Shown piece after piece: positions 3,693-56,381 of a DNA stretch of 64,000 nt. Below the pieces are notes generated by a model. It had not been told where the DNA came from, did no database searches, and saw nothing but the letters and a program-made list of their open reading frames with translations. The translations under genes and the position numbers were made by a program. The stretch lies in NCBI RefSeq assembly GCF_030247195.1, contig NC_080672.1, positions 376,998,166 to 377,062,165 of the forward strand. Direction: 5' to 3'. Each line of letters opens with the position of its first letter. The stretch's first letter is position 1. The stretch comes from Topomyia yanbarensis (Eukaryota; Arthropoda; Insecta; Diptera; Culicidae).

Positions 3693-6600
3693 CAGACTAT
3701 TTCCCTCTCCTAGGTTGACGGGTTTGACGGTACTGCAAACATCTTCAAGCATATTTGAGCAGACACCTGCTTTAAGATGGTTATTGCATTACGCCTCGAT
3801 AGTGGTGCATCGAGGATACCGAGAGGGCTTATGGGCCTTTTTTATGTTTTTTGTTATTTTATACTCTGCACCAGTCCAAACTAACAGTCAGCTTAGAGCC
3901 TGTGCACACTGGCGTGGCCGATTGGCGGGTCGCCGTGGATTGACTTTTTCTGTGGGCTGTCTTTGCAGACATTGTTCAACAGCTTAACGGCTGTCTTTTT
4001 GAGCACGGCTCGCAGTGGGAGTCATTGTGTGTCGATTTATCGATCGACCTCGTCAACGTGCACAGGCGCATTAAAAAAAATAACAGATGAAGGGTTCATT
4101 AGTTGTGTTGTGTTGTAATAATTGTAGTTTTTAGTACTAGTGTAAAATTGTTATGTGCTAGTCGTATGTCTATCAGTGTATGTATTCGTCTGAGTATTTG
4201 TGACATATGGGTCAGGGAATGGATGCAGAACTGGCTTATATGATAGAATAGTGGGTAATCCTTCTTTGGATCACTTTTTATCAGTGTTCAATTCGTGCAT
4301 TCGATTCGACTCATTCGGTTGGATAAATGAAGGTACGATTAATTTATCGACGCACATCAATCATCCATTCCCGGTCAGCATAGCATGAGAAACTTTTAAC
4401 GGAATGCAATTGTCGTTAATAATAAATATATCATTTTCTGGCATTTAAACGATTCCAAGTAGTTTTATTGCATTGTACATGTGTGTTGTTCAAACAATAC
4501 TCAATAGTAATACTAACTCTTCTCTTTATTTCATTTTGTTTTATTTATTTTCGGTCTCATGCGTCACATTCCTATGATGGCCTCTCCGAGTTCATTCATC
4601 AAAAAAGGGTAACATTGCTGCCAATAATGACTATTCGCTACCATCAGATATCGCCAGGTTTCAGAAGAATTGAGATGTACTCCCATACTCAATTGAATCA
4701 GATAAGTAGGAACGACCAAAAACTGCAAGTAGCATATTACACATGTCTTATTTTAACACATTAAATATTATTTGTATTAACTTATTATTTCCAGGTAACA
4801 CACATATTTCAACACACAACACTTCCCATACACACGTAAACATTCAAACTCGCAAATATACAAATGGTCGACAGGTGACTGGGCCAAGTGCATTCACTCG
4901 TAGGATCTATCATTTCGATGATCGCCTCGATTCTACGAAACGAGTGCACAATTAAGATGACATAAGCTAGTCTCGTCTGGTGAATGCATGTAACCTGGGA
5001 GCCCCAGGCACGACAGGACGAGACGGACAGATGACGGACTGGACTCAACGGGGCCTAGTTCAGAGTTTTAGGCATTCTTCAATGCACGGCTAGTGACATA
5101 AAAAAAGAAAGGATGTGCCATGTGGTGTGGTTGGCTATTCAAGAATTGGTAGAATTTGAAGTACTAATGTATGTCTTTCATGTGATGATCATAAATTCAG
5201 CTGTATCGTGTACCTATCTAATCTATTACGTCTCTCATATATTGTCCTTTATTTCTTCTTTTCGAGTCATATACTCCATTCTACACCCGCCTTCAGCTGG
5301 GTCAGCAAAGATGGTGATAGTGAACGTCTTAATAATCACACATTCTCAAACGCGGTCTCAAGCGGGAACCTACAAAAATGCCCTCGCGCACGCGATTGCG
5401 AATCGATCACGTCCGTAAGTCTATTCTTGATCCTAGAAGCCTAAGTCCATGCCTTCAGCTGGACCAATTAAGAAAATACGCACATACCTATTAGACAACA
5501 CGTCTCATGGCGACATGACCGGGAACCCTATCGATATAAACGATCCCCCACTCTCTGCCAGAATTCTAACCGCACACCGAAAATTTAATATCAGACTCAC
5601 GGTTCGCGCGACCATTCAAGAACACACGTTACAAAATCACGTCAGCGCACAAACGTTAGAGCCCCTCACGATTTTCCAAGCAACCTACGCCCACGAACTC
5701 GCAAACATGATTACACCCCGGTGATAAGGTGAAAATCTCAGCACACATAAACTTAGCAACACGATCTCAAGCGTCAACCTTCAAACTCCCGCGCTCGCGC
5801 CATCATAAATCGGGATCGTCTGGATGTCTCTATCCTCGGTACCAACAATCTAGGTCCTTGTTAATTAATAAAAAAAATTGAAAAATAACTCCCATATCCA
5901 CTAGAGAAAACGTTCCATGGCGACATGACCGGAAACTCTAGTGATATGGGGTAACTCTCTCCCTGTCAGAATGTTATCCGTACACCGAAAGCTAAAGATC
6001 AAAATGACGGTCCGCGAATATATGAATGGCCGCAGGGTTTCAAAATCGAATTTATACACACGAAGTCACATACACGCGAGCACACGCGACAAACGCGTCA
6101 ACATACGAACGCCGAAGCCCTTCGCGATCATCTACGCACACCTATACCCGCGATCGCGTAAACTTGATAACACTCCGGCAATTGTGTGAACATTTTAGTA
6201 CTTACGAAGTTACAAACGCGGTCTCAAACGCGAACCCGCAAACGCGCGCGATCATGAATCGGTCACATCCGGAAATCTTTAGCCTTCATTCTAGCAATTT
6301 AGGTCCATACATTCAGTTGGACCAATAAAAAAAATAAAGCTCATATCCACTAGACCACGCGTTCTACGGCGACATGAATGGGAATTCTAGTAATATGTAA
6401 GAACCCACTTTCTTCTGGAATCTGAACCGTACACAAAAAATTAAGTATCAGATTCACGGTCCGCGCGCGATCATTCTAGAACACACGCGAATATGCGAAA
6501 GGCACACGGTTATGAAATAGAAATTATACACGCGAAGTTCATACACGTTAGCACACGCGATCGAGCACGTTAACGTACAAATGCTCGAGCCCTTCGCGAT

Positions 6601-23552: not shown

Positions 23553-24663
23553 TGTAACCCGCCAGGGTAACAATTTTGCACTGGGTGGAAATATACCCTT
23601 TTTTGCGTATACACTCCGTAGAGTGTATTGTTTACGTAAAATTATGCTCACCGCTGTTCGGTACCGTTCACATTTAATTGTAAATTTTTGTTCATTTTCG
23701 CGTTTGTGAACGGTTTTATTCGTACAGATAGGTTAGATAATTTTTGTTTTACGTTTGTGAATTAGTAACATAGGGTTTAGGTAGGTCTCCGCTCTCCTCT
23801 CGCTGTAAAAGTGATTGCTAACTATGCTGTACCATGGCAATGACAGCTATGCGGCGGTGTGTTTTTTGGTGGTTGGTTGGTGGAGTGAAAAAAGGCGGCC
23901 ATCGAGATAAGACGGAAAGTGACGGACCACGAACAAGAACAGACGTCCAGAGTATTTTTCTTTCGGGACAGTTTTGCGCCACCGTAACTGTGGAGTTTAG
24001 TGCGCGCGTGTGACAGTAAAATCCCTGTCGAAAAGTGCCGGTTTGTGGTTCGGGCACAGTGCATAGTGTGGTGTCGGTTCGCCAAAAAGGGGTTAGCTAA
24101 TTACAAAGGAGTTCTTTCGCTACCCCGGCTAATTAAAAAGGAACCGAACATCAACCGTTCTCGCTATAGAGGATAAGTCGAACGAGCCTAGCTCTCCTCT
24201 ATAGCTAATAGCCAAGGAGAACGAAGCAGGGCGGACAAAGGTTCCCCCTGGGAAGTTTACTGCGGTAACTTCCGGGATCGTTTACGGCGAGTAGACGATC
24301 CGGCGATTCGTCGCCAACGTCGCTAGGGAGGTTCCAACAAAGGAGCCAAGCTCACCTCCCTAGCTAAACGCCAAGGACCGCTGCCGGAGCAGCCAACGAT
24401 ACCAGCAGGAGAACTCGGCCGTCGGAGTCCCGGCCGGTCGGATAAACCCCCGCCTTCCGCAGTCATCAAAAGCAGTAGCAGCAGCAGTGAAGTAGAGAAG
24501 CGGAGAAATAAAAGTCGGTAAATTTAGTAAATTACTTGTTTGTTTACTTTTGTTTTTTGTTGTTACGAAAATCCGAAATTCTGTAGAGGCACCTAGGCCG
24601 CCCTGAAAAGAAGGGTTCGCCGGGCAAACCAGAACCCGAGTAGTGGGCAAACCCCTACTTACA
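23553..24663 (+). repeat. 5' LTR
   Basis: 1111 bp from TGTAACCCGCC to CCCTACTTACA. It contains no coding frame. The 3' part (24163-24364) is a run of five hairpins. Two sites differ from the 3' LTR. Confidence 0.95.
24163..24364 (+). ncRNA. Hairpin train in the LTR (structured leader RNA)
   Basis: Five perfect stems follow one another: 24163-24173 with 24195-24205 (11 bp); 24251-24257 with 24267-24273 (7 bp); 24275-24281 with 24295-24301 (7 bp); 24302-24306 with 24311-24315 around a TTCG tetraloop; 24322-24332 with 24354-24364 (11 bp). The first and last modules also share loop and tail words (GAGCC, AGCT, GCCAAGGA). The same structure occurs in the 3' LTR at 32817-33018. It is probably transcribed in the 5' leader, where packaging, dimerisation or translation signals would sit. 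Confidence 0.7.
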
Positions 24664-25078
24664 TTTGGCGCACAGCGCAAAACACACTGAAAAAAAATAT
24701 TTTCCTATTTTGGAAAATATTTTTTTCTTCCGGAGTGTGGGGTGCTTCTACTAAATCTAGGATTTTCGTAGAACAGTCGGTGAGGTTTCTTCCGCAATAT
24801 TGTTTCGCGGTCGTATTATTTATTTTTTTACATTTTTGGTATTGTTTTTCTTTGATTTTTGCATTTTCCTTTTTTGTCCGAATTTGTGGATTGCGTTGTT
24901 TGTGTTTGGTCTGCCGGACGAGTAGTTTGAAGGTTGTTGTCATTTATTCGGTTGCGGTGGCCGATCGCCTTGAGTTCTCAATCCGGTTTGAGACATTGTT
25001 GGAGCAGCTTGATTTCCTGAAATTTTAAGGGAATCGTTAGTGGGCGAAAAATTGAAATAATACCGTGTCAGTACTTAC

Positions 25079-27238
25079 ATGCTTTGTGTCTTGGTGATTT
25101 CTTCCAATATAGCGCAAGTTATGATGGCGTTGGAGAAATTCAACCAAGCGTGTGTGTTCATGCGCGTCGATCATTTGCATTTCGATGAGCTGGATTTTGA
25201 GTTGCTATCTCGAAGCATTTTTATCTCTCCTGATTCGGATCTTTCGGGTGTCCAGCGGCAGCGGCGTCTTCGGGGAATTTTGTCGCATGAGCGGTCGTCT
25301 CGGAGGGAATTAGTACGCAATTTCCGGGGTGACGTGGGTGAAGAAAAGGAGATCTGCCTTGGTAAACTACTAACAATCAAGGAAGATCTCCAGTACAGGT
25401 GCCCAAACAAGGAGATTTACCGAACACGGTTGCTTCATTTGGGGTCTAGGCTCCAGGTTATCCGAAATTATGCGGCAGGGGAGGTCAACCAAGAAATTTC
25501 GGGGTTGCTGGAGGAAGTTCTAGCAGTTTATTCCAGTCATTTCAGTGACGAACAGGCAGCACTTCCTCCCGACAACCAAGAAGGGGAGGATGGAGAGATT
25601 TTGGGAGATTTGCTGAGTACAGACGTACCTGCAATTCCACAGGGATCCAATCCTTCCGATAACCAAGGATCTCTTTCTAAACAGCTCGTAGGGGACGACC
25701 TGTTGCGTGTCTTGTGCGAGATGAGGGACGAGATTCGACAATTGCGACAGCAATCCGACGATAATAGAGCCCTAGCGTCTCAGGGGTCTGATGCTTTTTC
25801 AAAAGCTACTGAAACGCTAATGGGTGGGATTGCTTCACTGACAACCATTTCGTCAGTATTAAGAAAGACGGTTCAAGAAGTTGTCTCACTTCGTGAATCC
25901 GTCAGTGAACTTCAGGCACTAGTACATCAGAAGGAAAGTGCTTCCGAGATGGATCTGCAGACCGATCTGGAAGATTTGCGTTTGATGGACGTACCCGATT
26001 CATTTAATGAACCAGAGATTGCTCGCCCAACACTGGCGCCCAGTCCCGATCAATTTGTGTTGAAGCGAGGATTCTCGGGTCAACAAAATATATGTCCATC
26101 ACTTCCAATCGAGAAACCGAAACTGAATACCGGATTCACAGCACCGTACCAAACTCAGAACCAGCCTCACGTTCCTGAATGGACCGAACAGCGGACGGGA
26201 CCATCCTATCCGAACTTTTCAATATCTACCAACGCGGGAAACGGATCGATGGCAGCCCCAAGGAATTACTCGCGTAACCCGCAACGCGTCGCTGATTGGA
26301 AAATTTGGAAGTATGCTGGAACTGATGAAGGAACGGGACTAAATGAATTCTTAGACACCGTAGCGAGTTACGCTGCGTGTGAGCAAATGTGCGAAGACGA
26401 ACTTTTCAATTCTGCGATGCATTTGTTCACTGGCAATGCTTTGACTTGGTATCAGGCTATGCGTGCGCAAAACCGGTTGTTTAACTGGAACCATCTTGTT
26501 TGCGAGCTCAAGGTAAATTTTGTACATCCTGAGCTTGATGCTACGCTCAAGATGAAGGCTCTCCAGCGCCGGCAGATGCGTAACGAATCTTTCCAGGAAT
26601 ATTTCCTGGAAATGGAGAAAATATTTCGTGCTATGACGGTTCCAATGGCACCGAGCGAAAAACTCGACGTGCTCAAGCGGAACCTGAAAGCCGACTATAA
26701 ACAAATGCTTATCCTCAGGCCAGTGAACACGCTCTCAGAATTGATGAGTCTTGGTAAATCGATCAACGCCTCCAAGACGCCGATTTATCAGAAAGTTTTC
26801 GGTTCTTCTCGGGAAGTTGCTGCTTATTCTGATAATCCACCACAAAATAATCAAAACCAAAAGGGAGGTGGACAGAATAACGGCAACGCAAAATCCAAAA
26901 CGTTTTGGAACAAGAATGCCAAACCGGCCGGTCTTGATTCAAGTAAGCCTCCTGACAACCAGAAAAAGAAACAGCAAGGGAATCAGGACGGCAAGAATCT
27001 CGAAGGAAACAATCAAAAACCGATCGAACCACCGCAGAAACCTATAATGTGTCTGGAGTATTTGGTGGAAAAGCATCGTCCTCCCGTGCTCGGCGTCTGC
27101 TACAATTGTGGAGACAAAGGACATGAATTTGAGGAATGCCGGAAACCAAATCGGGTCTTCTGCATCGTGTGTGGTTTTAAAGGATTTGATGTTTCTCGTT
27201 GCCCTTACTGCCTAAAAAACGGGATCAGAACCAACTGA
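25079..27238 (+). CDS. gag: Gag of the Ty3/gypsy element
   Basis: 719 codons from the first ATG; a second candidate start is the ATG at 25121 (MMALEKF), and no evidence separates them. It forms the particle shell and binds the element RNA. The middle (residues about 400-560) is the conserved retrotransposon gag region (an LNEFLDTVASYA segment, later GNALTWYQAM). The C-terminus has a CCHC zinc knuckle from residue 674 (CYNCGDKGHEFEEC; spacing C-2-C-4-H-4-C) followed by a second cysteine cluster, CIVC and CPYC. Residues about 595-660 are low-complexity Gln/Asn/Lys. It overlaps pol by 40 nt, with pol in the -1 frame. Confidence 0.92.
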   Translation: MLCVLVISSNIAQVMMALEKFNQACVFMRVDHLHFDELDFELLSRSIFISPDSDLSGVQRQRRLRGILSHERSSRRELVRNFRGDVGEEKEICLGKLLTIKEDLQYRCPNKEIYRTRLLHLGSRLQVIRNYAAGEVNQEISGLLEEVLAVYSSHFSDEQAALPPDNQEGEDGEILGDLLSTDVPAIPQGSNPSDNQGSLSKQLVGDDLLRVLCEMRDEIRQLRQQSDDNRALASQGSDAFSKATETLMGGIASLTTISSVLRKTVQEVVSLRESVSELQALVHQKESASEMDLQTDLEDLRLMDVPDSFNEPEIARPTLAPSPDQFVLKRGFSGQQNICPSLPIEKPKLNTGFTAPYQTQNQPHVPEWTEQRTGPSYPNFSISTNAGNGSMAAPRNYSRNPQRVADWKIWKYAGTDEGTGLNEFLDTVASYAACEQMCEDELFNSAMHLFTGNALTWYQAMRAQNRLFNWNHLVCELKVNFVHPELDATLKMKALQRRQMRNESFQEYFLEMEKIFRAMTVPMAPSEKLDVLKRNLKADYKQMLILRPVNTLSELMSLGKSINASKTPIYQKVFGSSREVAAYSDNPPQNNQNQKGGGQNNGNAKSKTFWNKNAKPAGLDSSKPPDNQKKKQQGNQDGKNLEGNNQKPIEPPQKPIMCLEYLVEKHRPPVLGVCYNCGDKGHEFEECRKPNRVFCIVCGFKGFDVSRCPYCLKNGIRTN

Positions 27239-30200
27239 AGTCGCAGTTGGCAGTAAAGCAGCGCTCCAAAGAACAACTAACAATCCATCCCCAGATTTAC
27301 GACAGTTTTCGACCGGCTCGTGATGAGGACTATGATAATTCGTTGTCTGTCGAAACCATCGTTCTTGACGACCCGTTCGATAACCGTCCATTTGCAATAG
27401 TCGCTGTGTACGGAAAATCCTTCAAAGCCTTGCTCGACAGTGGTAGTAACGCCACGATTATGACTAAAAAGCTATACCGAAAGTTTTCGAAAAGTCCCTT
27501 GAAAAGGTTGGAACGACCATTCGAACTACGTTCTGCAAATGGTCAATCCTTACCAATCATTGGACAAGCGTATCTCCCGTATACTTTTCAAAATTTGACA
27601 AAGGTCCTATGCACTCTTGTAGTAGAGCATCTGACCGTCAACTCCATTCTAGGTATGGACTTTTGGCGCGCCTTTGGGATTACTCCTGAGATACAAAACT
27701 GTGCTCTGTTGAACTCAGGTCAGGAATCAGAAGACGAAGAAGAAGATGAAGTACCGCGTGAGTCGATACTCACTTCGGAACAGTTAGCGCGCGTAGAAGA
27801 AGTAAAGAAGTGTTTCCAGGCAGTAGAGCCCGGAAAGCTAAGCCCAACCTCATTCACAGAGCACAGGATTGTCATCAAAGATGAATTCCAAGGTGCGGCA
27901 CCCGTTTGCCGATATCCTTATCACATGAGCCCAAAGAAACTGTCAAAGGTCTGGGAAGAGGTTGACCGATGGCGGTCTATGGGAATTATCGAGGAGTCTG
28001 ATTCGGATTGGTCGCTTAATATTGTGGCGGTCACGAAACCAGACGACTCAATCCGCCTTTGTCTAGACGCTAGGCCTCTAAATGAGCGTACTGTACGGGA
28101 TGCATACCCTCTGCCCCACCCTGGGCGAATATTGGGTGGCTTACCCAAGGCGAAGTACCTGTCTACTATAGACTTGAAGGAGGCCTTTCTCCAGGTACCC
28201 CTGGCCAAGGATAGTCGCAAATATACTGCTTTCAGTGTTCCCGGCAGGGGTATGTTCCAATTTACTCGTCTACCATTTGGTCTCGTCAACAGCCCCGCTA
28301 CTCTGGCGCGACTGATGGACCAGGTTCTTGGACGAGGTAAATGGGAACCTTACGTTTTCGTCTACCTAGATGACATCATCGTGGTAAGCGAAACGTTCGA
28401 GCATCACATACAGTTGCTCAAAGCAGTCGCCGATTGTCTAGCAAGAGCCAACCTAACCATCAATTTGGAAAAATCCCGTTTTGGAGTCCCCGAACTAAAG
28501 TTTCTTGGTTATTTGTTGAATCGAGACGGACTGAAGGTCAATCCTGGCAAAATTCAGCCGATTCTCGACTACGAGAGACCGGTTACCGTGACGAAACTTC
28601 GTCGTTTCCTAGGTATGTGCGGTTATTACCGCCGCTTCATTGATCGGTTCAGTGAGGTCACTGCTCCCTTGACCGATCTGCTCAAAACGAAAACCAAGAG
28701 CTTAGTTTGGAACTCCGAGGCAGAACTCGCGTTCCTTAAAATTAAGGAACTTCTAGTCACTCCTCCAGTTTTAGTCCCGCCAGACTTTTCCAAAGAGTTC
28801 ATCCTTCAGACAGACGCTAGTGACGTAGCAGTCGCTGCTGTTCTGGTGCAGGAGTATCCCGACGGTGAGAAAGTAGTTGCATACTTTTCGCACAAACTGA
28901 CCACTCCCCAAAGGAACTATCATGCAACTGAGAAGGAAGGTCTGGCGGTGATAATGGCGGTTGAACACTTTCGAGGTTACTTGGAAGGTTATCATTTTCG
29001 ACTGGTCACTGATTCGTCAGCGATTACATGGATACTGAAGACTAAATGGAAAACCAGTTCACGTTTGAGTCGTTGGAGTTTAGAATTGCAACTCTATGAC
29101 ATGTCTATTGAGCACCGGAAAGGCAAGGACAATGTCGTTCCAGATGCGTTATCCCGGGCCGTAGCAGCCGTTTCCGCTTTGTCCACCTCAGACTGGTACT
29201 GTTCCATGAAGTCCAAAGTTATCCAAAATCCTGACGACTATGTCGACTTCAAAGTAGAAAATGATCAACTTTTTAAGTATGTCAACTCAAAAGTTGTTCC
29301 GTGCGACTCGCGGTTCAGTTGGAAACTCGTCCCAGCACCCGAGTTCCGTCAAGATTTGATTCAACGTACCCACGAAAATTTGCTTCACGTGGGATACGAT
29401 AAAACGATCCACGAAGTGCAGTTACGATATTACTGGCCTCGTATGGGATCTGAAGTACGAAAGTTTATTCGAGAATGTGGGACGTGCAAGGAAATCAAAG
29501 CTCCTTTCGTCCCAGTCCAGCCCGAAATGGGTAAGTCGCGTGCGACTAATGCACCATGGCGAATGGTTTCTGTGGACTATATTGGTCCTCTTCCAAAAAG
29601 CAAACGTGGCAATCAACACTTGCTTGTCGTCCTCGACGTCTTCAGTAAGTACGTCATGTTAACCCCCGTTCGCAAAATCGCTAGTACGTCACTCTGTACG
29701 ATACTGCGCGAACAGTGGTTCAATCGCCATGGTAGCCCGGAAATTCTGCTAAGCGACAATGCCTCCACTTTCACCTCGAAGGAGTTCAGTCAATTCATAA
29801 AAGAAAACAACGTCAAACATTGGCTGAACTCCCGCTATCATTCGCAGGCTAACCCAGTGGAGCGAACAAATCGCTCGATAAACACCGCAATCCGGGCATA
29901 TGCTCGAACCGAGCAGCGCAACTGGGATGTCCACATCACCGATGTGGAGCGCATCCTAAATACTACCGTTCATTCCTCCACTGGGTTTAGTCCTCATTTC
30001 ATTATACACGGGTGTGAAATGGCATCTGCCGATGACTTCAGCAGGATTTCCGGTGAGGGTGACCTAGAAACAAGACACCAACAGATAGACAAAATGCGGG
30101 AGATTGTGGTCAAAAATTTGGCAAAGGCAAGCGAGGGCATTCGACATCAGTACAACTTGCGTCATCGAAAGTTCTCCAAACCTTTTGAAAGGGGACAAAT

Positions 30201-30498
30201 GGTATACCGTCGAAACATGAAGTTGTCGAATGCACTCGAGTCTTACAATGCTAAACTTGGACCACAATACTTACCGGCTAAAATTGTCTCAACTCCTACG
30301 AGCTGGAGGATATGGCAGGTAAAAATCTCGGAGTTTGGCCAGCAAATCTCCTTAAACCAGCATAAAAAAACTTTTCCGTGCCGTCTGTGGACTGACGGTA
30401 TGCTTTTATATGGATTACTCACTTGGGAGTTTTCCAAAAGCAGCCGTCAGTTCCCGACGGCAACAACACGGACTTTGGTCCGAATAAAAAAACAATAA
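27199..30498 (+). CDS. pol: Pol polyprotein (protease, RT, RNase H, integrase)
   Basis: 1099-codon open frame, expressed as a Gag-Pol fusion through the frameshift at 27220; the ATG at 27199 is probably not used. Domains in order: aspartic protease (LLDSGSNATI, near residue 78); reverse transcriptase with PFGLVNSPAT and the catalytic YLDDIIV near residue 388; RNase H (QTDASD near 538, TDSSA near 605, GKDNVVPDALSR); and integrase. The integrase has an HHCC finger (HENLLHVGYDK to CGTCK), Asp in SVDYIG near 791, Asp in LSDNAS near 852 and Glu 35 residues later in NPVER. All catalytic residues are in place and no stop or frameshift interrupts the frame, so it is probably functional. The domain order identifies Ty3/gypsy; the clade within it is not assigned. 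Confidence 0.95.
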   Translation: MPLLPKKRDQNQLKSQLAVKQRSKEQLTIHPQIYDSFRPARDEDYDNSLSVETIVLDDPFDNRPFAIVAVYGKSFKALLDSGSNATIMTKKLYRKFSKSPLKRLERPFELRSANGQSLPIIGQAYLPYTFQNLTKVLCTLVVEHLTVNSILGMDFWRAFGITPEIQNCALLNSGQESEDEEEDEVPRESILTSEQLARVEEVKKCFQAVEPGKLSPTSFTEHRIVIKDEFQGAAPVCRYPYHMSPKKLSKVWEEVDRWRSMGIIEESDSDWSLNIVAVTKPDDSIRLCLDARPLNERTVRDAYPLPHPGRILGGLPKAKYLSTIDLKEAFLQVPLAKDSRKYTAFSVPGRGMFQFTRLPFGLVNSPATLARLMDQVLGRGKWEPYVFVYLDDIIVVSETFEHHIQLLKAVADCLARANLTINLEKSRFGVPELKFLGYLLNRDGLKVNPGKIQPILDYERPVTVTKLRRFLGMCGYYRRFIDRFSEVTAPLTDLLKTKTKSLVWNSEAELAFLKIKELLVTPPVLVPPDFSKEFILQTDASDVAVAAVLVQEYPDGEKVVAYFSHKLTTPQRNYHATEKEGLAVIMAVEHFRGYLEGYHFRLVTDSSAITWILKTKWKTSSRLSRWSLELQLYDMSIEHRKGKDNVVPDALSRAVAAVSALSTSDWYCSMKSKVIQNPDDYVDFKVENDQLFKYVNSKVVPCDSRFSWKLVPAPEFRQDLIQRTHENLLHVGYDKTIHEVQLRYYWPRMGSEVRKFIRECGTCKEIKAPFVPVQPEMGKSRATNAPWRMVSVDYIGPLPKSKRGNQHLLVVLDVFSKYVMLTPVRKIASTSLCTILREQWFNRHGSPEILLSDNASTFTSKEFSQFIKENNVKHWLNSRYHSQANPVERTNRSINTAIRAYARTEQRNWDVHITDVERILNTTVHSSTGFSPHFIIHGCEMASADDFSRISGEGDLETRHQQIDKMREIVVKNLAKASEGIRHQYNLRHRKFSKPFERGQMVYRRNMKLSNALESYNAKLGPQYLPAKIVSTPTSWRIWQVKISEFGQQISLNQHKKTFPCRLWTDGMLLYGLLTWEFSKSSRQFPTATTRTLVRIKKQ
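27214..27250 (+). promoter_or_regulatory. Programmed -1 ribosomal frameshift site
   Basis: The heptamer A AAA AAC lies at 27214-27220, phased exactly as required in the gag frame (CTA AAA AAC). Ten nucleotides downstream a 7-bp stem CCAACTG/CAGTTGG (27231-27237, 27244-27250) closes a 6-nt loop, and the gag stop TGA lies in it. Slippage there moves ribosomes into the pol frame. Confidence 0.85.
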
Positions 30499-32206
30499 AC
30501 ATTTCTCCGTCTTCTCTATTTTTATTGTGGAAGACCAACTCTGCCGCGAGAAGGTTCTTCAACACCTTCTTGCAATTTTTCAGAGCCACACTCACGCAGT
30601 GTGGTAAACAAACACTCGCACGAAATATATGCTCCGGCCCCGGTGACGACTACGGTATGGTGGAATACTCTACTAAAACACTAATCTTATACCGTGCCGT
30701 TCTCCCGGGCACCGGACGCATCTAAATACACTACCTGCCGTGTTCGGCAAAGAGTAGCAAAATTCTTTTGCGCCCCACTCACGCAGTGAGGTAATCAAAT
30801 TATCTCACTTAATGTATGGTCGGGGACCCGTCTTGGCCACAGAAGGATAGAATTATCCACTTCAATAAACACACCGTGGTCCCCGGCCGCATCAAATACA
30901 TCACTTTCCGCCGTGTCCGGCAAAACAAATTTATTCAAAACCCCTTTCACTAGGGGGACACCAGCACCTACGGGTGCAGAAAATGTAAAAAAATCTCCTT
31001 GTTGGGAGCACAAAATCACTATTCCCTTTTCCAATAGGGACACAAACATTAGCACGGCTAATTCCCGACCGAAATAATACTCGAAATCGCGCGGAAACAA
31101 AAAAAATCGCGAATAAAAACAATTTGCGACGCCGATTTCGCGTATTGTTTTGATGATGATTCATTCATCCATTCAGGTGGATGATATCATCATCATTTTT
31201 GACACTTTCCTTGATGTTCGCACCAATGCTCTGCATCATACAGGTGTAGCCCGATTCGGATCAGGATGGTATGGGTGTTAGGGGGAGATGTGGGTTAAAA
31301 AGCGCCTTGCGTCTTCGATTTCGAATCAAATAATACTAATTTTATTTCGCATAATTTTGGGTTTGTGGTTAAACCTGGGATGGTTCGTTTGATTCCAGCG
31401 GGAATCATTTCGAGATTTTTAAATTACGCGAAAGACATTCTTTGGTCCCTCTCAAACGTTTCTTATGCCATGTAGGAAGAGTTTTGAGGCGAAAAGGGAC
31501 GAATATACAAACTTTTTGTCCGGAATGTCTGTGAGTGGAAGAAACGATGACGTGTTAAGCGGTATGGTATGAGTGAATGTATGAGTGTGGAATCGAACTG
31601 AGTGAATGAATGTTCGAGTGAATGATTAGATAAAGTTGTTTTGGGGTTAATTCGAAGTGCTTATCGGAATGTGAATGATCGAGCAGGCCAGTGATTGAGG
31701 ATGAATGAATGAAATTGTATGAATCTATTTGGATAGAAACCCCAGCACAAGCGTATAGTACTGGTACCGTGAGGACACGAAAGACATTTCTGGACAGTCG
31801 ATGAAAAAAACAATGTAATGCCGACAACCGTTCCCCTGCAAGTTGGAACATTGAAAATTGTCAATGCCACTTGCAGAATTTTGGGAATCTCGAGTTGTTA
31901 CCGATCTTGTTTTCAGATTGGATTTAGGGTTCAACCTATAACCGAGTAATGACGATGGCTGATAGCCTCTCGCTTCGCGTATGCTGTCAGTATTATCAGA
32001 CCAAACTTGAGCAAACATTTCACCGACGAGGACACTCGGTCGATTAATTTTTGTGATGAATATTATTGATAAATTGCGGAAGAAATGGTTAGGGTTAGTT
32101 AGTTTTTCTTTGTTTATTTATTGATTCATTTCGTTATTATTATTGTATCGGTGTTAGGTTAGAAAAAAATTGTTTCCAATTTTTTTCCACCCGGTGTGGG
32201 CGAGAT
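30499..32206 (+). other. Non-coding region between pol and the 3' LTR
   Basis: 1.7 kb with no envelope or other long frame. The first 540 bp is a structured tandem repeat (see 30549-31040). At 31147-31195 a TGATGATGAT...ATCATCATCA palindrome encloses a second one (CATCC...GGATG). A purine-leaning run just before the 3' LTR (about 32194-32204) is a weak polypurine-tract candidate; another G-rich run is at about 31276-31284. Confidence 0.7.
30549..31040 (+). ncRNA. Hairpin train and tandem structured units downstream of pol
   Basis: Two diverged units of about 180 bp start near 30584 and 30772. Each opens with a hairpin whose loop is CACGC (30586-30604; 30773-30791) and closes with a GCCG/CGGC hairpin (30736-30749; 30910-30921). 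Between these, unit A has a 7-bp ACGGTAT/ATACCGT stem (30652-30658, 30689-30695). Unit B has an 11-bp long-range stem (30818-30828, 30878-30888). Further simple hairpins follow at 30941-30956, 30964-30977, 30995-31008 and 31023-31040. Preserved structure with changed sequence suggests a functional RNA fold. Confidence 0.6.
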
Positions 32207-33317
32207 TGTAACCCGCCAGGGTAACAATTTTGCACTGGGTGGAAATATACCCTTTTTTGCGTATACACTCCGTAGAGTGTATTGTTTACGTAAAATTATG
32301 CTCACCGCTGTTCGGTACCGTTCACATTTAATTGTAAATTTTTGTTCATTTTCGCGTTTGTGAACGGTTTTATTCGTACAGATAGGTTAGATAATTTTTG
32401 TTTTACGTTTGTGAATTAGTAACATAGGGTTTAGGTAGGTCTCCGCTCTCCTCTCGCTGTAAAAGTGATTGCTAACTATGCTGTACCATGGCAATGACAG
32501 CTATGCGGCGGTGTGTTTTTTGGTGGTTGGTTGGTGGAGTGAAAAAAGGCGGCCATCGAGATAAGACGGAAAGTGACGGACCACGAACAAGAACAGACGT
32601 CCAGAGTATTTTTCTTTCGGGACAGTTTTGCGCCACCGTAACTGTGGAGTTTAGTGCGCGCGTGTGACAGTAAAATCCCTGTCGAAAAGTGCCGGTTTGT
32701 GGTTCGGGCACAGTGCATAGTGTGGTGTCGGTTCGCCAAAAAGGGGTTAGCTAATTACAAAGGAGTTCTTTCGCTACCCCGGCTAATTAAAAAGGAACCG
32801 AACATCAACCGTTCTCGCTATAGAGGATAAGTCGAACGAGCCTAGCTCTCCTCTATAGCTAATAGCCAAGGAGAACGAAGCCGGGCGGACAAAGGTTCCC
32901 CCTGGGAAGTTTACTGCGGTAACTTCCGGGATCGTTTACGGCGAGTAGACGATCCGGCGATTCGTCGCCAACGTCGCTAGGGAGGTTCCAACAAAGGAGC
33001 CAAGCTCACCTCCCTAGCTAAACGCCAAGGACCGCTGCCGGAGCAGCCAACGATACCAGCAGGAGAACTCGGCCGTCGGAGTCCCGGCCGGTCGGATAAA
33101 CCCCCGCCTTCCGCAGTCATCAAAAGCAGTAGCAGCAGCAGTGAAGTAGAGAAGCGGAGAAATAAAAGTCGGTAAATTTAGTAAATTACTTGTTTGTTTA
33201 CTTTTGTTTTTTGTTGTTACGAAAATCCGAAATTCTGTAGAGGCACCTAGGCCGCCCTGAAAAGAACGGTTCGCCGGGCAAACCAGAACCCGAGTAGTGG
33301 GCAAACCCCTACTTACA
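32207..33317 (+). repeat. 3' LTR
   Basis: 1111 bp, collinear with the 5' LTR at an offset of 8654, with two substitutions seen (32882 and 33267). Followed by the AAGG target duplication. Confidence 0.95.
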
Positions 33318-34106: not shown

Positions 34107-36000
34107 TTGATCAAATTCACCATTCGTGAAAAACCAAACCAAATTTGTTAGTATTTTTACAGAAAAAGTTTATTGATATGAAAAATAGACAAAAATAGTT
34201 GAATAACTATCACTATGAATATTCAAATCTTATTACCATAGAAGCTGTAATCTTAATTTGTATTCTATATTCACAATATGTAAACAAAGTTCGAAAACTG
34301 TAGTCACACCACACTGATATGTTCTTCCGCTAGCTGGCTACACTCTGTTGATTATTTCTCCTTAATTGCAGCATCTGATCATACATTTCCATGATGTAAG
34401 AATTATACCCCACGATCATCGATTGCATAATAGCATTTCTTTGTTCCATTAGATCCCGCTCTTGCTCGATCTGATCCAGCATCCGTTTCTTCTTGCAGGT
34501 ACACAAGTTGCTCGTCATCCGATCCCACCTTCGACGTGCTTCCTGCTCAATTAGATCGGTAGTCGTCGTTGGCAGATTCACGCCTAGTTGCTCCAGTTCG
34601 GGCTTTCGGTGCCGATCGGCTTGCAGTTGTTCGAGGTGTTTGTTTACATCGGCAAACAGCTGGGCAAACTCGTTCAACTTTAACTTAGCAGCCGATTTGT
34701 TCGATCTTCGCTGACCATACTTACGTCCCATTTGCCTCGCAGAGTACACGAATTCGACCGTGGCTGGCGGTTGGCTGGTGCTAATCGAAGCAGTAGCCGA
34801 TGGAAGGTTTCCATTGAGAGCTATTCCGATGACGTCTTCAGGCGCTATGATCATCGGCTGCACTAGCCCGTTGGGACCTCTAGCGTAGACGAGGTACATT
34901 TTCAGCTCATCTGGTGAAACGAGCCGAAAGAACTTTCCATTTTCCTTGCGGCAAGTGATTTTGTCCATTTCCGTAGTTTGACTAGAACTTCAATATTTAC
35001 TGCTTATAATGTGAGTGATACTGATGCTCGAATTGGCGAAACATAACGTTTTATGGTCGATTTACAGGTATAAACTCAAACGAACATGGAATATTTTGAA
35101 AAACATAACAATAGTTGGCATATTTGATTACCTATTGTTTCAGGTAGGTAGGTACTAACAATACTGCATTTTTAAATGCTTCTTATTTGTATCGTGTATG
35201 AAATCTTCTCACCGATATGCTGTTTATATTGTAAATCTGTGTTTGTGTATTTTGAGACTATGAACGATTCAGTTAAACGAAACAAACTGTTGCGGATAAT
35301 GCTAGGAAATGGTTTTCAGCAGGCACTCACACAACTTCTCCGGATAAATACAACGCATTATTTCTACGGATAAATCTCGACAAACATGTCAAATGGTCAT
35401 AAGTGCAAATGAGAGTCTCTGTTTACTTTCTCTTTCGATTATTACGGCGTCAGCATAAAACTTTTCAATATTGTTTCAGGATATATCGAAAAAACGCTGA
35501 TTTCGACTAGCATATTATGCTAAGAGTTAATTAACAAACGTATAAACAAACTAGTTATTAGCGAAAGAGAAATTAAACAAAGAGAAACTGTAATTTTCAC
35601 TTAGGACCATTTGACATGTTTGGCTAGAAATAAATCCGTCGGAGAATGAGCAAATAAGTTTATCACTGTATCCTTTTTGCGCTTGCATCCTTGTTGACGC
35701 TATTCCAAAATACGAAATTAAACAAGTCTATCATACTTATTTGTCGCTTTTCTTGGAAATGAAGTGTATATTTTGACACTTTAATTGATTTCCACGAAAA
35801 TAAAATATTATTACCTTCTCCGGTGATAAGGAAAAAAATCAGATGAATTCTATCGGAAAAATCATGCTCACGTTATTTCTTGAGACGGAAAATTTTGCGA
35901 CTCATCTTATCTCAGAAAAGTTGGACATCGGATAAGCTTCTTCTCGCGTAAGTGAGTGAAAATTTTAATGCCTGCTTTAAAGACAATGCTGATTCGTACC
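34107..36000 (-). repeat. Inverted duplication, arm 2
   Basis: Reverse-complement copy of about 12400-14085. Longer than arm 1 because of several insertions in the upstream flank, for example near 35390-35600. Confidence 0.85.
34330..34968 (-). CDS. Unrecognised 212-aa coiled-coil protein (copy 2)
   Basis: Same length and start context as the plus-strand copy at 13225-13863, fully open. Ten amino-acid differences, all after residue 110 (such as Gly to Asp in the LFA-VNKH segment and Met to Val in SMI-GYN). The N-terminal half is unchanged although it has about eight silent changes. The inverted polyadenylation signal TTTATT lies at 34169-34174. The upstream region is similar to copy 1 but with insertions, so expression may differ. 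Function unknown to me. Confidence 0.75.
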   Translation of the reverse strand: MDKITCRKENGKFFRLVSPDELKMYLVYARGPNGLVQPMIIAPEDVIGIALNGNLPSATASISTSQPPATVEFVYSARQMGRKYGQRRSNKSAAKLKLNEFAQLFADVNKHLEQLQADRHRKPELEQLGVNLPTTTTDLIEQEARRRWDRMTSNLCTCKKKRMLDQIEQERDLMEQRNAIMQSMIVGYNSYIMEMYDQMLQLRRNNQQSVAS

Positions 36001-42073: not shown

Positions 42074-45000
42074 ATGTCCCGCACCAAGTCACGGCTGCAG
42101 GCAGAAATCTGTGGCGATTGCGGCAGCTCAGGTGAGTCAATAGTGTGTATTATAATATGCGGGGATAGGATTTTTCATTCATCACACACCCACAACACAA
42201 CGAAATTAATAATTGGACGCTATTTATGGACTTGTTGCTTCATGGTTATAAGTTCATGATGGATTGATTTTTTCTTTCAATTGAATGCTTGTGCGGAATT
42301 TGATCTCAGAAATACTACAATTTATTAGTGGATGTACACAAATAAAATTCCCTTGCTTCAATTAATATCGTTTTCATCCAACAGATCCCTCATGGGCCTC
42401 GATCAACCGGGGTATTCTGCTATGTGCCGACTGTTGTTCGATCCACCGTAGTCTTGGCAGGCACATTTCGCAAGTTAAGTCATTGCGTCAAGGCACCTGG
42501 TCCCCATCGGTTCTGGCCTTTGTGAATCAGCTTAATAGTCATGGGGCAAACAGCGTATGGGAGCACCTGCTACTGGATTCCGTAGCTCCGAAGAATCTGA
42601 AACGGAAACCGTCGCCAAAGGACCCCCTGCATCCGACAAAGACCGAATTTATTAGGGCAAAGCATGTCAATTTGTCCTATGTGTTGAAGCCCAGCCTGGA
42701 GGATGCGGGGAGTGGTCCGATTAATTTAGAGGCTGAATTGAGTAAACAACTGCACGCCAGTGTTAGATCCGGCAATCTGGAAACCAGTTTACGGTTTTTG
42801 GTTCAGGGAGCCGACCCAAACTTTTATCATGAAGACAAAGGTTCGACACCGCTGCACGTTGCAGCCCGTTCAGGTCAGCTTTCTCAAATGGAACTACTAA
42901 TGGTTTATGGAGCGGACGTTAACGCGCTGGATTCGCAGGGAAATACGCCATTGGATGTGGCGAAGGCTTGCAAGCAGACGGCGATTGCCGAACGTTTGAC
43001 GGAAGCCATGTACGAAGTAACCGACCGGTTAAGTTATTATCTAACGGGAAAGAAACCGGATCATACGGTAGGCTCGCTGCGCTATGAACAGTTGATGGTT
43101 GATGGATGTATATTCTTTTTTCCAGGCCGGCCAACATTTGCTTATTCCAGATCAATCGAAGAAAGAGATCAGTGATCAGCTGAAAATTGCCCGTGGCAAG
43201 TTGCAATTAGTTCCGAATCGAATGTTTGAAGAGCTGGTGATGGATCTTTACGATGAGGTCGATCGTCGAGAAACTGAAGCTATTTGGTCTACTAGTTCGT
43301 TGAACCCGGAAATTGGCGCTGTTCCTTTCTTGCCCACGAATCCTCACCTGAGTGCAACAAGAAATCAGGTGACTTCATTCGATTAAAATGAAAAAGTACT
43401 TTACTTACCTATAGACCTTCCTTTCTTGCTAGGGACGGCAAAAGCTAGCTCGCTTCAGTCAACAGGAATTTGCCGGATTGATCACTGACGTGCTGATCGA
43501 TGCACGGCGTCGTCAGAATATGGCTAATCTGCGCCCAGTCGATGCTCCACTGCCGGTAAGCTTGACACAGCTGAAAACGGCCGCTGCCGCGTCCGTAAGG
43601 GAGTCTAATCTGTCCGACGATGAACCGTTGTACGATGCGGTTGCATCCGATGATGATTACGCTGCATTAGCTCCGGTAGCGCAACAGGTAAAGTTTCTAA
43701 TGCGTCAGAAGGCAGTACTGAACCATAACAACAGCTTCGGGTGAAGGGTGTTTGTCCCATGTTATTGGTGTCTTATTGATGTGTGGTTGTGTGGGTGTGT
43801 TGGTGTGCTAATCGATTGGTTTTAGAAACTACTAAACAGTGGCTTGTGGAAGTAGGTGCTGGAGATATATTTACAGTTAGATCGAAGAAAGCAGTTTTAT
43901 GAATATATCAATAGTTTGGTGATAGATTCCCTCATATTTTTTATACATTCATTTTATTATTTTTGCACGATAATCTAACATCATTTACATGCATGTCAAC
44001 AACTAATTTACTTACTGGTTAAGTGTAGAATTGGTCATAATCTGGTGCAGGTATTAGAAAAAGATTTGGGAGATGTGGCCCACAGAAGCCATCTGACCTT
44101 TTGCTACATTAGCTTCATCCAATCACAAAGCCGTCCATAGAAATGATCTTGGTATACTAGGAATATGATTTTAGAAGAACAAATTTTGCCGTAGCATAGA
44201 AGGTGCTGAAGAATCTGCAATATTAACTCCATTCATTTAACCCAATAGCGCTGTGAATGTCGAATATTAGCCGTAGAGCTTGCCTGTGACGCAAAGTTTT
44301 ATAGATTAGTGAAAGGTGCAGGGAGAGTACTAGCCATGTCTGTGAGAATAAGAAGCCAAAAATATATGTATTACTAACAAGCAACCGCTACTTTAACTGT
44401 CTTTTCTTGACCTACCTTGAACACCCATTTCCGCCCCCGTCTATCCAACTCACCTGTCTCAGAACCATTCCAATATACTACGATGACATGTTAAATTCGA
44501 ATTACAATTTTATAAAGGCCCTCGTGAATAAATCACCACCAAGTGTCGTCTCGAATGCCGAAGTCGAAACCCTTCGCCAGAAGCTGCAGGACCAAGAATC
44601 AACCATTAACGAGCTGCGCGTGCTGGTTCAGAAACTGACCAGTGAAAACTGTCAGCTAAAGTCGAACATGGGCTCGAGAGAATCCGAAGTTCTGCTGTAA
44701 GTGTCAATCGGTTTTGGGGTTTGAAGTTGTTAATCGGTAAAGTTTCCTTTCATCTTACAGACGAATCGACAGTCACCCGAACGGTTCTACAGCAGCTGCA
44801 GAGGTCGAGGAACTGGAACCCGTCTCAGACGGTCGACAATACTTCAAGCGTCCGGTAAGTATGTATGAGGCACGGCAGCTACCCCGAGACGAGAATCGTC
44901 CGCCAATCACGCAAAGCTTGTACTCAATGGCACCGCTGGGTACCACCAGTGCCGTCAACGCTGCTGGTGGCGCCAGCACGAACAATAGCGCTGGTTCAGA

Positions 45001-45424
45001 TTTGAACGCTACAACGACTAGAAGTGGTAGTCAGCCTCAGCTACCGCACTTCGATGAGGTCAAAAAGAGAACCGATCTAGTTGCTAGACGTATCAAGGAA
45101 CTGTTTGCTTCGTTGCAAGACCTAACCAAAACGGACGCATTTGTACCGTGTGCCGAGCGAATACGGGTGGCCGTAGCCGAACTGATGGCCATTTTTCCCG
45201 CCACAATGCGAGAGGAAACACTTAAAAATGCCCTGAAGCAGCTAACCTACAACACCAATCTGATTCAAACGGAATGCACCCGTCTGCAACGTTCTTTTGC
45301 CGAGGAAGGTCAGCAACCGGTCCTGTCGGACAGCATCAAAGTCAACATGGAACAGGTACGAGGTTGTGCGTACGATTTAGCTATGTCGACCAAAATTTTG
45401 ATCACACGTTTTCAACAATCGTGA
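42074..45424 (+). CDS. Git: Git: ArfGAP with ankyrin repeats, six exons
   Basis: GIT proteins switch off Arf GTPases and scaffold PIX/PAK at focal adhesions and synapses. Exons: 42074-42131, 42385-43067, 43126-43368, 43433-43740, 44463-44696, 44761-45424. Every junction has GT/AG and the phases join, giving 729 aa, close to human GIT1/2 (about 760). In order: ArfGAP zinc finger CGDC...CADC with the arginine-finger region HRSLGRHIS (exons 1-2); ankyrin repeats (GSTPLHVAARSGQ, GNTPLDVAKACKQ); Spa2-homology repeats (FEELVMDLYDEVDRRE; LARFSQQEFAGLITDVL); a coiled coil in exon 5 (VETLRQKLQDQESTINELR); and a C-terminal helical, paxillin-binding type domain (DAFVPCAERIRVAV to ITRFQQS). The start ATG gives a short basic leader before the zinc finger, as in the family. 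The exon 4 donor CGG|GTGAAG is the least certain; GTAAAG at 43688 is an alternative. Confidence 0.93.
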
Positions 45425-46004: not shown

Positions 46005-49000
46005 CCCTCGGCATGATACTGTACCTTGATGTGGTCCGGGGGCTTTTCCACAAAAGCAGTATTACAGTGATTATATCACAGAAACTTGGGATACGATTAA
46101 TTTCTTTTTAGTTAAACTACATTGTGATCAATTTTAGTACTTAACTTGGCGACCTTTATTATCCACTGCCATGGTCAAATAATATACAATGTGGGTTTAG
46201 GGCCCAATTCTCTCTGCAGGCACCCTTCTTTTGTTGCTATATTTTCAATTAGATCCATGCTAACACTCACTAACACAAATTGCTTATTCTCTCATATACA
46301 CTAACAATCTCTCATTCCAAACGTACAAGCGTGGCCTACGCGATAACACAAACCTGGTCACTAATACGAACGCCCGCGATCTCACCAATATTCAAACACC
46401 CCGATTGATTAGGTGAACGTTGTAACATAAGAACCTAAGCTCACGCAATCATGAATCGGTCACCTCCGGAAGTCTCCGCCCTTGATCCTAGCAGCCCAAA
46501 TTCATGCCATTAGTTGGACCAATAGAAATAAAACTAGACAAGACGTCCACGCGCGATCATTGAAGAATACGCTAACATGCGAATGGCCACACGCTTATAA
46601 AAATAATGTGTCCACGAGAAGTTACATGCATACTAGCACACGTGACAAAAACGTCCACATACAAACGCTCGAGTCCTTCGCGATCATCCACGCACGACCA
46701 CACCCACGATCTCATAAAAAGTATAACACCCCGGTGACTAAGTGAATGGTTTAGCACTTATAAATTAACAATCCCAGTCTCGAGAGTGAACCCCCAAATG
46801 CCCGTGTTCACGCGATCATGAATCGGTTTCGTCCGGAATCCCCTATTCTCGGCCCTAGTAGCAAAAGTCCAATGCTTTCAGGTGGACCAATCAAAAATAT
46901 AATGCTCATATCCACTAAACTACATAAAATCGAATGTATACACACAAAGTCACATACACGCGACAAACAAATATAAAAATGCTTGAGCCCTTCGCGACCA
47001 TCCACGCAACCTATACTCGCACTCTTCCAGACATTATAACATCCCGGTGATAATATGAACGTCTCAGCACTTGTAATCACTCAAACGCAATCTCAAGCGT
47101 GAACCTACAGTCCCCCGCACTCGCGCATTCATGAATCGTTCATGTCCGGAAGTCTCTATCCTCCATCCCAGAAGTCTAGGTCCACGCCTTAATTGAATCA
47201 AATAACTCCACAGCTCCAGTAGGACAACTCTCGAAAAAAAATCGGAATATTATTAATACTCAATAACAATACTAACTCTTCTCTTTATTTTATTTTTATT
47301 TATTTTCGGTCTCATGCGTTTTATTCTTGTGATGACCTTTTCGAGCTCATACATCCAAGAAGAGCAACATTGCTGCCAACAATGATTCTTCTCTGCCATC
47401 AGACGTCGCACAGTGGCTGGAGGCTGGCCAAAACCTCAAAAATTTATATTTGAAATATTGATATTTTATATTTTTCCTTAATTTCTCATGTATTGAATGG
47501 CGTATATTCAAAATTTTATGATCATTGGATAAGAACACGATTTTTAACATGAGTTTAAAGGTAGCAAAGTCCGGACTTTTTAATGATTTTCATTTCCGAA
47601 ACCACCATTGATCTGTTCACTTCAAATGCATATTACTCTTTTGATTTTGGTCCGATTTTAGCAAAACTTATTTCATTGTGTAGAAGAACGAAAGAACTTG
47701 GATAGTGAATAAAATACATTTGGTAAATTTGCTTGGAACTATGACTTTTTCGTTGAAATATTTTTGAGGTGGCCAGATCAAAATTTTTTTCTTCACTAAT
47801 ATATTCTGTACAAATTTCGGAATCATTTCGGAACGGTCACATAGTATACATTCTATGGGAAATAACCTCTACTTTTCGAATATCATGGTCTCGTTCTGCG
47901 CCTAGGTGCGCAAAAAGGTTTAAGGAGATTTTGAAGCTTTGTTGCTGATTTGGAGGCGCATGGTGTTTTGTCTAAAATATTTAGACAATCTACAGTAAAC
48001 CAACGCGTTATACAATGGATTTAAAGTAATGATCTTCATTTTTTATGGTATTGCTGACATTGGTGAACAGTAACGGAAAATCTATCATGAAAACGGGATC
48101 ATAGTTATAAGAAAGGTTCAATGACACTGTATGGAAAAATGCATTTAATATTTTACGACTTTTGACATCAAAAATGAGCTCAGCACCTCAAAATTAGCTT
48201 AAATTGAGATTTTCAGCCAAATTAGGTAACATTCGAGGTTTTGTCCGACTTTTGTTTGAAGACCCGCCACTGTGCGTCGCCAGGTTTTAGAACAATGGAG
48301 ATGAGTATGAGAATAATACTTGATGGAATCAGATAAGTAGGAACGATCAACAAACTGCAAGTAGTATATAACAAATTTCTTATTTTAACGTATAAATTAT
48401 TATTCGTATTAGAATATTATTTACAGGCTCCACACATATCTCAACATACACAAATGCTTGACAGGTGACTAGGCCAAATGCATTCACTCGTAGGATCTAT
48501 CAATTCGATGATCGCCTCGATTCTACGAAACCAGTGCACAAGTAAGCTGACATAAGCTAGTCTCATCTGGTGAATGCATGTAACCTGGAAACCCCAGACA
48601 CGACAGGACGAAACTGACAGACTGGACTCGACGAGGCCTAGTTCAGAGTTTTCGGGCATTCTGCAATGCACGGTTAGTGACCTAAAAAAAGAAACATTCG
48701 GCATGTTATTTTTTCCTTTTATTACTATATCTTAAGTTAGGTTCATACTCATACTCACTAACACAATCAATAGCATATTTTCCCATATACACTCACATCC
48801 AAAGCGCACAAACGCCCCTAACTTTCGCGATAACACAAACCTGGTCAAAAACGCAAATTTACATTACAATTTCAATCATCCACACACACCTACGCTCGCA
48901 ATTTCGCCAACATTAAAACACCCCCTTACTTAAGTGAACTTTTCAGCACCTATAACTTTACAACCGCGGTCTCAAGCATTAACCCACCACTCGCGCGATC

Positions 49001-49591
49001 ATAGACCAGCTACGTTCTGAATTCTCTACTCTCGACTCATGCCTTCAGTTGGACCAATCAAGAATGATGCAATGAATGATGCATATTCACCAAACAACAC
49101 GTTCCTCTACCATACACTAAAAATTAATTATCATATTCACGGTCCGCGCGTGATCGTTCAAGAATACACGTGAATATGCGAATGGCCACACGAATCTAAA
49201 ATCGAATTTATGCACGCAAAGTTAGAGACACGCTAGCATTCAAATTCTCGAGCCTTTGGCGATCACACTATTACACAATTAGTAAACACCCACGCTAACC
49301 CAGACAGATATGCACTCCTGGACTCGAACTCTAAAAACCACACCTTCCACGCATACACCACCCAGGACTGAACATTAGATTCATACACACAAAGCAACAA
49401 GTAATAATTGCAAGTATTCGTCTGGCAACCGGGGGAAGTACATCTCAAACGCAGAACTTATCATTTCAATGATGGCCTTGGATCTGCGTTGCCTGTGTTC
49501 AAGGCACCATAGCTTTGTCCGTCAGGTCAAGGATGTATGAAACCCGCTAGCCACCACCCTCGGCCCTAGCTGCCCATAAAGGGATAAAAAA
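46005..49591 (+). mobile_element. A-tailed composite insertion, 24-bp target duplication
   Basis: The same 24-mer (starts AAATCTACACTTCG) stands at 45981-46004 and 49592-49615. The inserted DNA ends CCATAAAGGGATAAAAAAA, a 3' end common to non-LTR elements. The interior lacks reverse transcriptase and is made of the degenerate units also found in 3693-6818. A second A-rich end near 47240 (CCAGTAGGACAACTCTCG then A's) suggests two copies joined. It carries the Transib-like element at 47409-48274. Confidence 0.65.
47409..48274. mobile_element. Transib-like non-autonomous transposon with 12/23 RSS-type ends
   Basis: 866 bp flanked by the 5-bp duplication CGTCG (47404-47408, 48275-48279), which fits the CGNCG target preference known for Transib. 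Both ends begin CACAGTG, identical to the V(D)J heptamer. On the left, 12 nt (47416-47427) separate the heptamer from CCAAAACCTC. On the right, inverted, exactly 23 nt (48267-48245) separate it from ACAAAACCTC, a nonamer-like block. The related copy near 4641-4660 is an empty site reading straight through (CATCAGATATCGCCAGG). No transposase frame, so it would depend on an autonomous Transib elsewhere. Confidence 0.8.
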
Positions 49592-55740: not shown

Positions 55741-55910
55741 TATATAGTAGTCTTGTTGAGTGTTGCCGACCTGTGCCTCATAATCAGATTACGATGGTTC
55801 GAGATCGTTGGATATGAGCTAACTCAAGCGTAATACCCCAAAGCGGAGAGTTACATCTAACACCTCTTCTTTTCCAGCTTGTGCAAATGTTGGGCGATTT
55901 CTTACATCTA

Positions 55911-56381
<471 letters not shown>

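Follow-up and report, generated by a model that had tools for sequence, protein, structure and literature searches.

Transib termini open with a CAC heptamer resembling CACAGTG, and the 12/23 Transibs in print (Transib5; Transib2, N1, N2 and N3) reportedly go back to Kapitonov and Jurka 2005. One passage of PMC8355894, citing its reference 8, attributes asymmetric 12/23 TIRs to Drosophila melanogaster Transib5 and to Anopheles gambiae Transib2, N1, N2 and N3, and the same text argues that such Transibs are relevant to the origin of the 12/23 rule. In a passage of PMC9435367, the TIRs of Transib subgroup I are all asymmetric and subgroup II contains both kinds. According to a passage of PMC8289069, most Transib families, HzTransib included, are symmetric and resemble the RSS nonamer little or not at all, and whether and how 12/23 signals derive from the paired ends of a transposon is hard to determine. 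In the literature searched (titles, abstract openings and passages), we met no count of 12/23 Transib ends across a whole genome.

Here we analysed an 866-bp element, a member of what we call family A, in a 64,000-nt stretch of Topomyia yanbarensis DNA (hereafter the window), together with its relatives in the same genome. Like Transib5 and Transib2/N1/N2/N3 as those passages present them, family A is dipteran and combines an RSS-like heptamer, a nonamer-like block and spacers of 12 (±1) and 23 (±1); compared by description, it differs from them in that the spacers are exactly 12 and 23 in family A, in a second family, B, and in the group of the coding element F8, with two different inner blocks. 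HzTransib (PDB 6pqn and others) is homologous to the transposases T1 and T2 and to the C-terminal part of the F8 transposase but, unlike family A and F8, is described as symmetric in the passage of PMC8289069. The vertebrate 12/23 RSS with RAG1/RAG2 share with our elements the CACAGTG heptamer, an inner block and spacings of 12 and 23, whereas the blocks found here match the RSS nonamer at 5 to 8 of 9 positions (at the 12 or 23 positions) and the ends belong to a mobile element. Passages of PMC8355894 and PMC9435367 describe asymmetric bipartite ends and 5-bp duplications also for the RAG-like transposons ProtoRAG (27/31) and AanRAGL (4/13), which differ from family A in their spacings and in carrying RAG2-like genes.

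Because 12/23 Transibs are already in print, family A is an additional, well-replicated 12/23 Transib and not the first, and any novelty of such ends gives way to the published passages on the Drosophila and Anopheles elements; a sequence-only reading of this locus had itself stated that 12/23-like spacing was noted before in some dipteran Transib ends. What we add is that several families of one genome, as well as a protein-coding relative, have the 12/23 layout. About a hundred 12/23 end pairs were counted (57, 9 and 38, with some overlap between the first two counts), probably out of many more, and they fall into two inner-block types, each of which agrees between the 12 and the 23 position. 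These observations bear on the question whether antibody-gene assembly took over its 12/23 rule from a transposon or acquired it later together with RAG2, and a single species with coding 12/23, 23/23 and symmetric Transibs provides naturally occurring elements with which to test this directly.

Results

Borders and ends of the window copy

A scan of the window for an exact 5-mer duplication around exact inverted CACNNNN heptamers no more than 5 kb apart returned a single pair (Table 1). The sequence-only reading had placed CACAGTG at both ends, with a 12-nt left spacer, a 23-nt right spacer and CGTCG as the target site duplication (TSD), and all of this was confirmed.

Table 1. Coordinates in the window of the family A element, its terminal parts and the corresponding empty site.
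Feature	Position	Strand	Remark
Left TSD CGTCG	47404..47408	.	Exact 5-mer match; the empty-site paralog reads TATCG
Family A element, 866 bp, non-autonomous Transib-type	47409..48274	.	Defined by its borders and by copies elsewhere
Left heptamer CACAGTG	47409..47415	+	Unchanged in 51/51 copies of family A that are 12/23 and have a perfect TSD, for which selection had demanded a heptamer match of at least 6/7
Left spacer GCTGGAGGCTGG, 12 nt	47416..47427	+	
Left inner block CCAAAACCTC, nonamer-like, 12 position	47428..47437	+	
Right inner block ACAAAACCTC, nonamer-like, 23 position	48235..48244	-	
Right 11-bp block ACAAAAGTCGG, nonamer-like at spacer 12	48245..48255	-	
Right spacer GCGGGTCTTCAAACAAAAGTCGG, 23 nt	48245..48267	-	
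Right heptamer CACAGTG	48268..48274	-	
Right TSD CGTCG	48275..48279	.	
Paralogous empty target TATCG, in segmental duplicate	4649..4653	.	

The inner block shared by the two ends, CAAAACCTC, is separated from the heptamer by 12 nt at the left end and by 23 nt at the right end, the arrangement of 12/23-type Transib ends. A 7/9 match to the RSS nonamer had been claimed, which holds for the right block at spacer 23; for the left block, at spacer 12, the match is 6/9. The right end contains an additional nonamer-like block, ACAAAAGTC, at spacer 12 (7/9), which that reading had left unmentioned.

The borders were also proposed to be fixed by a paralogous empty site near position 4653, and this proved correct: the joined flanks of the insert align straight through the paralog at 4529-4780, with TATCG in place of CGTCG, thereby showing that the insertion consists of exactly the element plus one TSD. 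The empty site originates from a segmental duplication (window 4529-6503 versus 46437-49240) that has diverged, its pieces being 63-91% identical.

CACAGTG occurs at both termini in the window copy and in the family, and the 5-bp duplications are GC-rich, as in Transib. No long reading frame was found in the 866-bp element; it thus encodes no RAG1-core-like transposase, for which its relative F8 does code, and is classed only as a non-autonomous Transib member.

Copies of family A across the genome

Searching the assembly (1.168 Gb in three very large contigs) with an 876-bp query returned at least 41 copies of family A at 94-100% identity, window copy included. This count is a lower bound, 40 of 1997 candidates having been scored; all 41 copies were inspected, and one extra row in the second batch was a repeat of a copy already counted. 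Perfect 5-bp duplications stood at the expected borders of 37 copies (28 of the first 30, 9 of the remaining 11), a figure that rises to 39 if L028 and L029 are judged at their actual right ends, which have lost 14 and 5 bp, respectively, with a matching 5-mer still just outside. The other exceptions are L032, with one mismatch, and L034, whose left end is missing. Transposition with altered spacers was considered for L028 and L029 and rejected since a single post-insertion deletion explains each, and both were therefore excluded as evidence of spacer tolerance.

Family A is a young family, the first 30 copies diverging from their consensus by 1.1% on average. Within the end regions of these 30, changes present in several copies fall in the right spacer, and heptamers and inner blocks carry single-copy changes only, both on small numbers.

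Candidate pairings of ends, filtered for a heptamer match of at least 6/7 and an inner-block match of at least 7/9, numbered 73, and dropping the 15 that had no perfect duplication left 58 elements from loci L001-L071. All but one of these 58 were 12/23 (51 of family A and 6 of family B), the exception being L029 (12/18), in keeping with the earlier proposal that the asymmetric pair is preserved. Judged by eye, the dropped pairings comprise three real 12/23 elements with one TSD mismatch (L032, L042 and L044), L028, and others that look like adjacent heptamers in tandem copies or like shifted or chance motifs. Loci L001-L041 were picked by whole-element similarity and L042-L071 by a pattern in which a single heptamer and a single inner block were specified, so that, together with the match filter, the low substitution counts in the latter set are partly built in. 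The TSDs of the 58 elements conformed to CRNYG in 53 cases and to CGNCG in 39. Borders, duplications and spacer lengths were consistent in nearly all copies compared. The departures that the sequence-only reading had named as counting against it (differing borders, missing duplications, variable spacers) were checked for and did not overturn it.

Two tandem pairs of family A copies share one copy of the 5-bp duplication: L011/L041 (C2:201741914-201743658), whose members differ clearly in divergence, and L064/L065 (around C1:21400672-21401584). An F8-type head-to-head pair (C1:11373316-11376801), seen by coordinates only, also shares a 5-bp duplication, its 12 ends lying 5 bp apart. The duplication from one insertion seems to have been reused as the target of the next.

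Spacer length in ends matched with free spacing

Since near-identical copies are uninformative on the conservation of spacing, spacer length was left free in a search for the inner block followed by 8-34 bases and the heptamer, which matched 1800 ends in the genome (890 + 910) compared to 2 for the reversed pattern. Among the first 100 ends listed, the spacer was 23 in 75, 12 in 22, and 22, 27 and 18 in one each (97/100 being 12 or 23), and the convergent neighbouring pairs among the listed CAAAACCTC-type ends were 12/23 in 9 of 9 cases. Inspection of 30 pattern loci revealed a partner end and at least 4 of 5 duplication bases in 27, the outer pair being 12/23 in every one of these; no partner end was found in reach of L059, L062 and L067.

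Family B, found among the pattern loci, is distinct, with a length of 726-867 bp and an interior and spacers of its own. A third family, C, is represented by the right ends L072/L073; its left ends were searched for and not found. The right ends of A, B and C are homologous (71-75% over about 100 bp), and their 23-spacers are identical at 14-15 of 23 positions, mostly the inner 11 bp, with a length of always 23. Spacing hence stays constant while spacer bases vary, as the sequence-only reading had asked of the copies. A variant pattern with the CCGACTTTTGT block, aimed at further families, gave 90 ends that by eye are variants of family A or B. The right ends of L074 and L075 (CACAGTG-23- and CACAGTG-18-ACAAAACCTCTAGCGC, respectively) have a block context in common with T2 and not with A; they possibly represent further T2-type families, one with a spacer of 18.

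A coding Transib with 12/23 ends

F8 (C1:71585730-71589542) is a 3813-bp element with CGATG on both flanks and a 642-aa open frame, the C-terminal 269 aa of which match HzTransib 6pqn with an E value of 1.1e-66. This HzTransib-like relative, together with the CACAGTG ends and the mostly CRNYG duplications, bears out the Transib-type identity first proposed for the window copy. The F8 ends read CACAGTG-12-ACTTAAGTC and CACAGTG-23-ACTAAAGTC, and the best 9-mers common to both sit at the 12/23 offset; in shuffles of the ends, an 8/9 match at (12,23) occurred in 0 of 3000 and an 8/9 match anywhere in 217 of 3000. F8 matches the autonomous Transib with the same ends that the sequence-only reading had proposed to look for in coding capacity and 12/23 layout but not in the inner block, which is ACTWAAGTC; among the coding Transibs examined, none combined CAAAACCTC with 12/23 spacing.

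With free spacing, the ACTWAAGTC block matched 1443 ends in the genome compared to 5 in the control. These ends are known mostly by coordinates, with letters for about a dozen rows; the first 100 listed had spacers of 23 (52 ends), 12 (47 ends) and 20 (one end), hence 12 or 23 in 99 of 100. All 38 convergent pairs among the listed ends were 12/23, of which 26 measure 1.61-1.75 kb and four, F8 among them, 3.8 to 6.4 kb. Spacers are thus known for 200 of 3243 matched ends, a non-random sample entirely from the first part of contig C1, with 22, 27, 18 and 20 as the exceptions.

Other Transibs of the same genome

Of 943 candidate places for a 48-aa Transib C-terminal consensus, 150 were scored and matched it with an E value of 6e-11 or better, indicating that Transib transposases are abundant in this genome. 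Most of the 150 listed matches share the score of T5, of which copies L084, L086 and L087 (C2:5387300, C2:8000200 and C2:167289800) are about 99.4-99.5% identical, apparently as a result of a recent burst. T1 (718 aa) and T2 (689 aa) are full frames that match HzTransib with E values of 1.3e-116 and 5.1e-111, respectively. In a single-protein scan with the Pfam RAG1 model, T1 passed the 25-bit cut-off (27.1) and T2 fell below it; against the whole genome the model gave zero matches, with 14 controls equally silent even though T1 alone passes, so that this zero carries no weight.

The two ends of T1, flanked by CGGCG on both sides, match over the 50 nt compared; inverted repeats measure about 610 bp in T3 and ~700 bp or more in T5, the 5′ terminus alone of T5 lying within the stretches examined; all three begin CACAGTGGT. 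The ends of T2 are 23/23 (CACAGTG-23-TCAAAACCTC and -23-TCAAAATTTC) with one spacer common to both and with CAAAACCTC at one of them. F9 (C3:85213055-85216651, CGACG on both sides) is likewise 23/23 (CACAGAG-23-CCAAAAACC and -23-CCAAAACTA), its spacers being identical at just 12 of 23 positions. No clear ends were found within 1.1 kb downstream of frames F6, F7, F10 and F12 (L089, L091, L094 and L092). With the other Transibs being 23/23 or symmetric, the 12/23 layout is a lineage trait.

Movement and pairing of the ends

The window copy is very probably a young, non-coding, MITE-like Transib moved in trans by a Transib transposase that recognises 12/23 ends. Such a transposase would bind both ends and move the element by cut-and-paste, cleaving beside CACAGTG while its nonamer-binding part grips the inner block at 12 or 23 bp; reinsertion would occur mostly at CRNYG sites, with duplication of 5 bp. 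The inner block would accordingly be a protein contact, and an F8-like transposase is the candidate mover of family A. Nick-and-hairpin cutting is the known chemistry of HzTransib and RAG and would be expected here as well.

The element alone had been thought capable of testing the 12/23 rule, but its layout demonstrates conserved spacing, not enforced pairing. We tentatively suggest that a RAG1-type transposase without RAG2 might enforce true 12/23 pairing, an F8-like protein synapsing only one 12 and one 23 end, and that a 12 end may have given rise to the 23 end by gaining an 11-bp nonamer-like unit (about RCAAAAGNYGG). An 11-bp block of this type persists at the 12 position in the 23-type ends of all three families and of F8, where it immediately precedes the inner block (ACAAAAGTCGG in A and B, ACAAAAGCTGG in C and GCAAAAGGTGG in F8). 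Spanning one helical turn, it looks like the remnant of an insertion that turned a 12 end into a 23 end. If so, the coexistence of asymmetric and symmetric Transibs would show how a 12/23 rule is gained.

The 12/23 spacing could well be, although we lean slightly against it, a frozen accident of descent in which the ends are read separately, any pair works and no pairing rule exists, a reading that shares the Transib identity and concerns the pairing rule alone. Owing to the common ancestry of copies, the thousands of ends represent only a few independent lineages (A, B, with C for one end, and the F8 group, the right ends of A, B and C being mutually homologous), and near-perfect 12/23 pairing is equally expected from descent alone. 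The presence in the same genome of 23/23 (F9, T2) and symmetric Transibs (T1, T3 and T5 as far as examined) points the same way, as does the fact that the nearest relative of F8 among the five compared is the symmetric T1 (53% over 267 aa). L029 has perfect TSDs despite a right spacer 5 bp shorter, although its post-insertion deletion explains this. On the other hand, 0 of the 9 + 38 convergent pairs among the listed ends are 12/12 or 23/23, and the spacing has outlasted both the sequence change in the A, B and C spacers and the swap of the inner block.

As for the mover, it is unlikely that family A depends in trans on a T2-type Transib instead of an F8-like one. The intact T2 frame and the heptamer with CAAAACC at spacer 23, which T2 and family A have in common, would fit, but T2 has no 12-type end, and among 65 scored of 1551 candidates only five places reach at least 62% identity to T2, one of them the intact copy, compared to 1800 ends.

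We regard it as quite improbable that the ends are really 12/12, with an A-rich block at spacer 12 as the nonamer of both ends and the 23 block as an accessory. ACAAAAG lies at spacer 12 in the right ends of A, B and C and matches the RSS nonamer at 7/9, in family A as well as the 23 block does. The left 12 block of F8, however, matches the right 23 block (8/9) better than the right 12 block (4/9), and the same is true of A and B (8-9/9 versus 5-6/9), giving ranges of 8-9/9 and 4-6/9 overall. The inner block moreover co-varies, ACTWAAGTC replacing ACAAAACCT at the left 12 and right 23 positions together; this co-variation is the strongest sign that the two sites would be one functional element at two spacings.

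That a different superfamily with 5-bp TSDs supplied ends resembling RSS by chance can hardly be entertained, even for an element that codes for nothing, since family A has its heptamer, kind of TSD and end architecture in common with F8, whose HzTransib-like protein already contradicts it.

Other features of the window

An inverted pair (13118-13876 and 34317-35075) is 96% alike with an open 212-aa frame in each member, and the one of the two frames that was scanned had no Pfam match. Tandem repeats of 95 bp occupy 6821-7388, with a related copy at 3614, and an 8-bp tandem array that is self-complementary over >120 nt lies at 55837-56215. Exons of a GIT-type ArfGAP gene (42483-45424) encode ankyrin repeats and a C-terminal part that is GIT-like by named homologues. 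An LTR retrotransposon at 23553-32506 codes for gag (Ty3 capsid-like) and for pol with RT, RNase H and integrase domains, and its 300-nt direct repeats are 100% identical, indicating a recent insertion.
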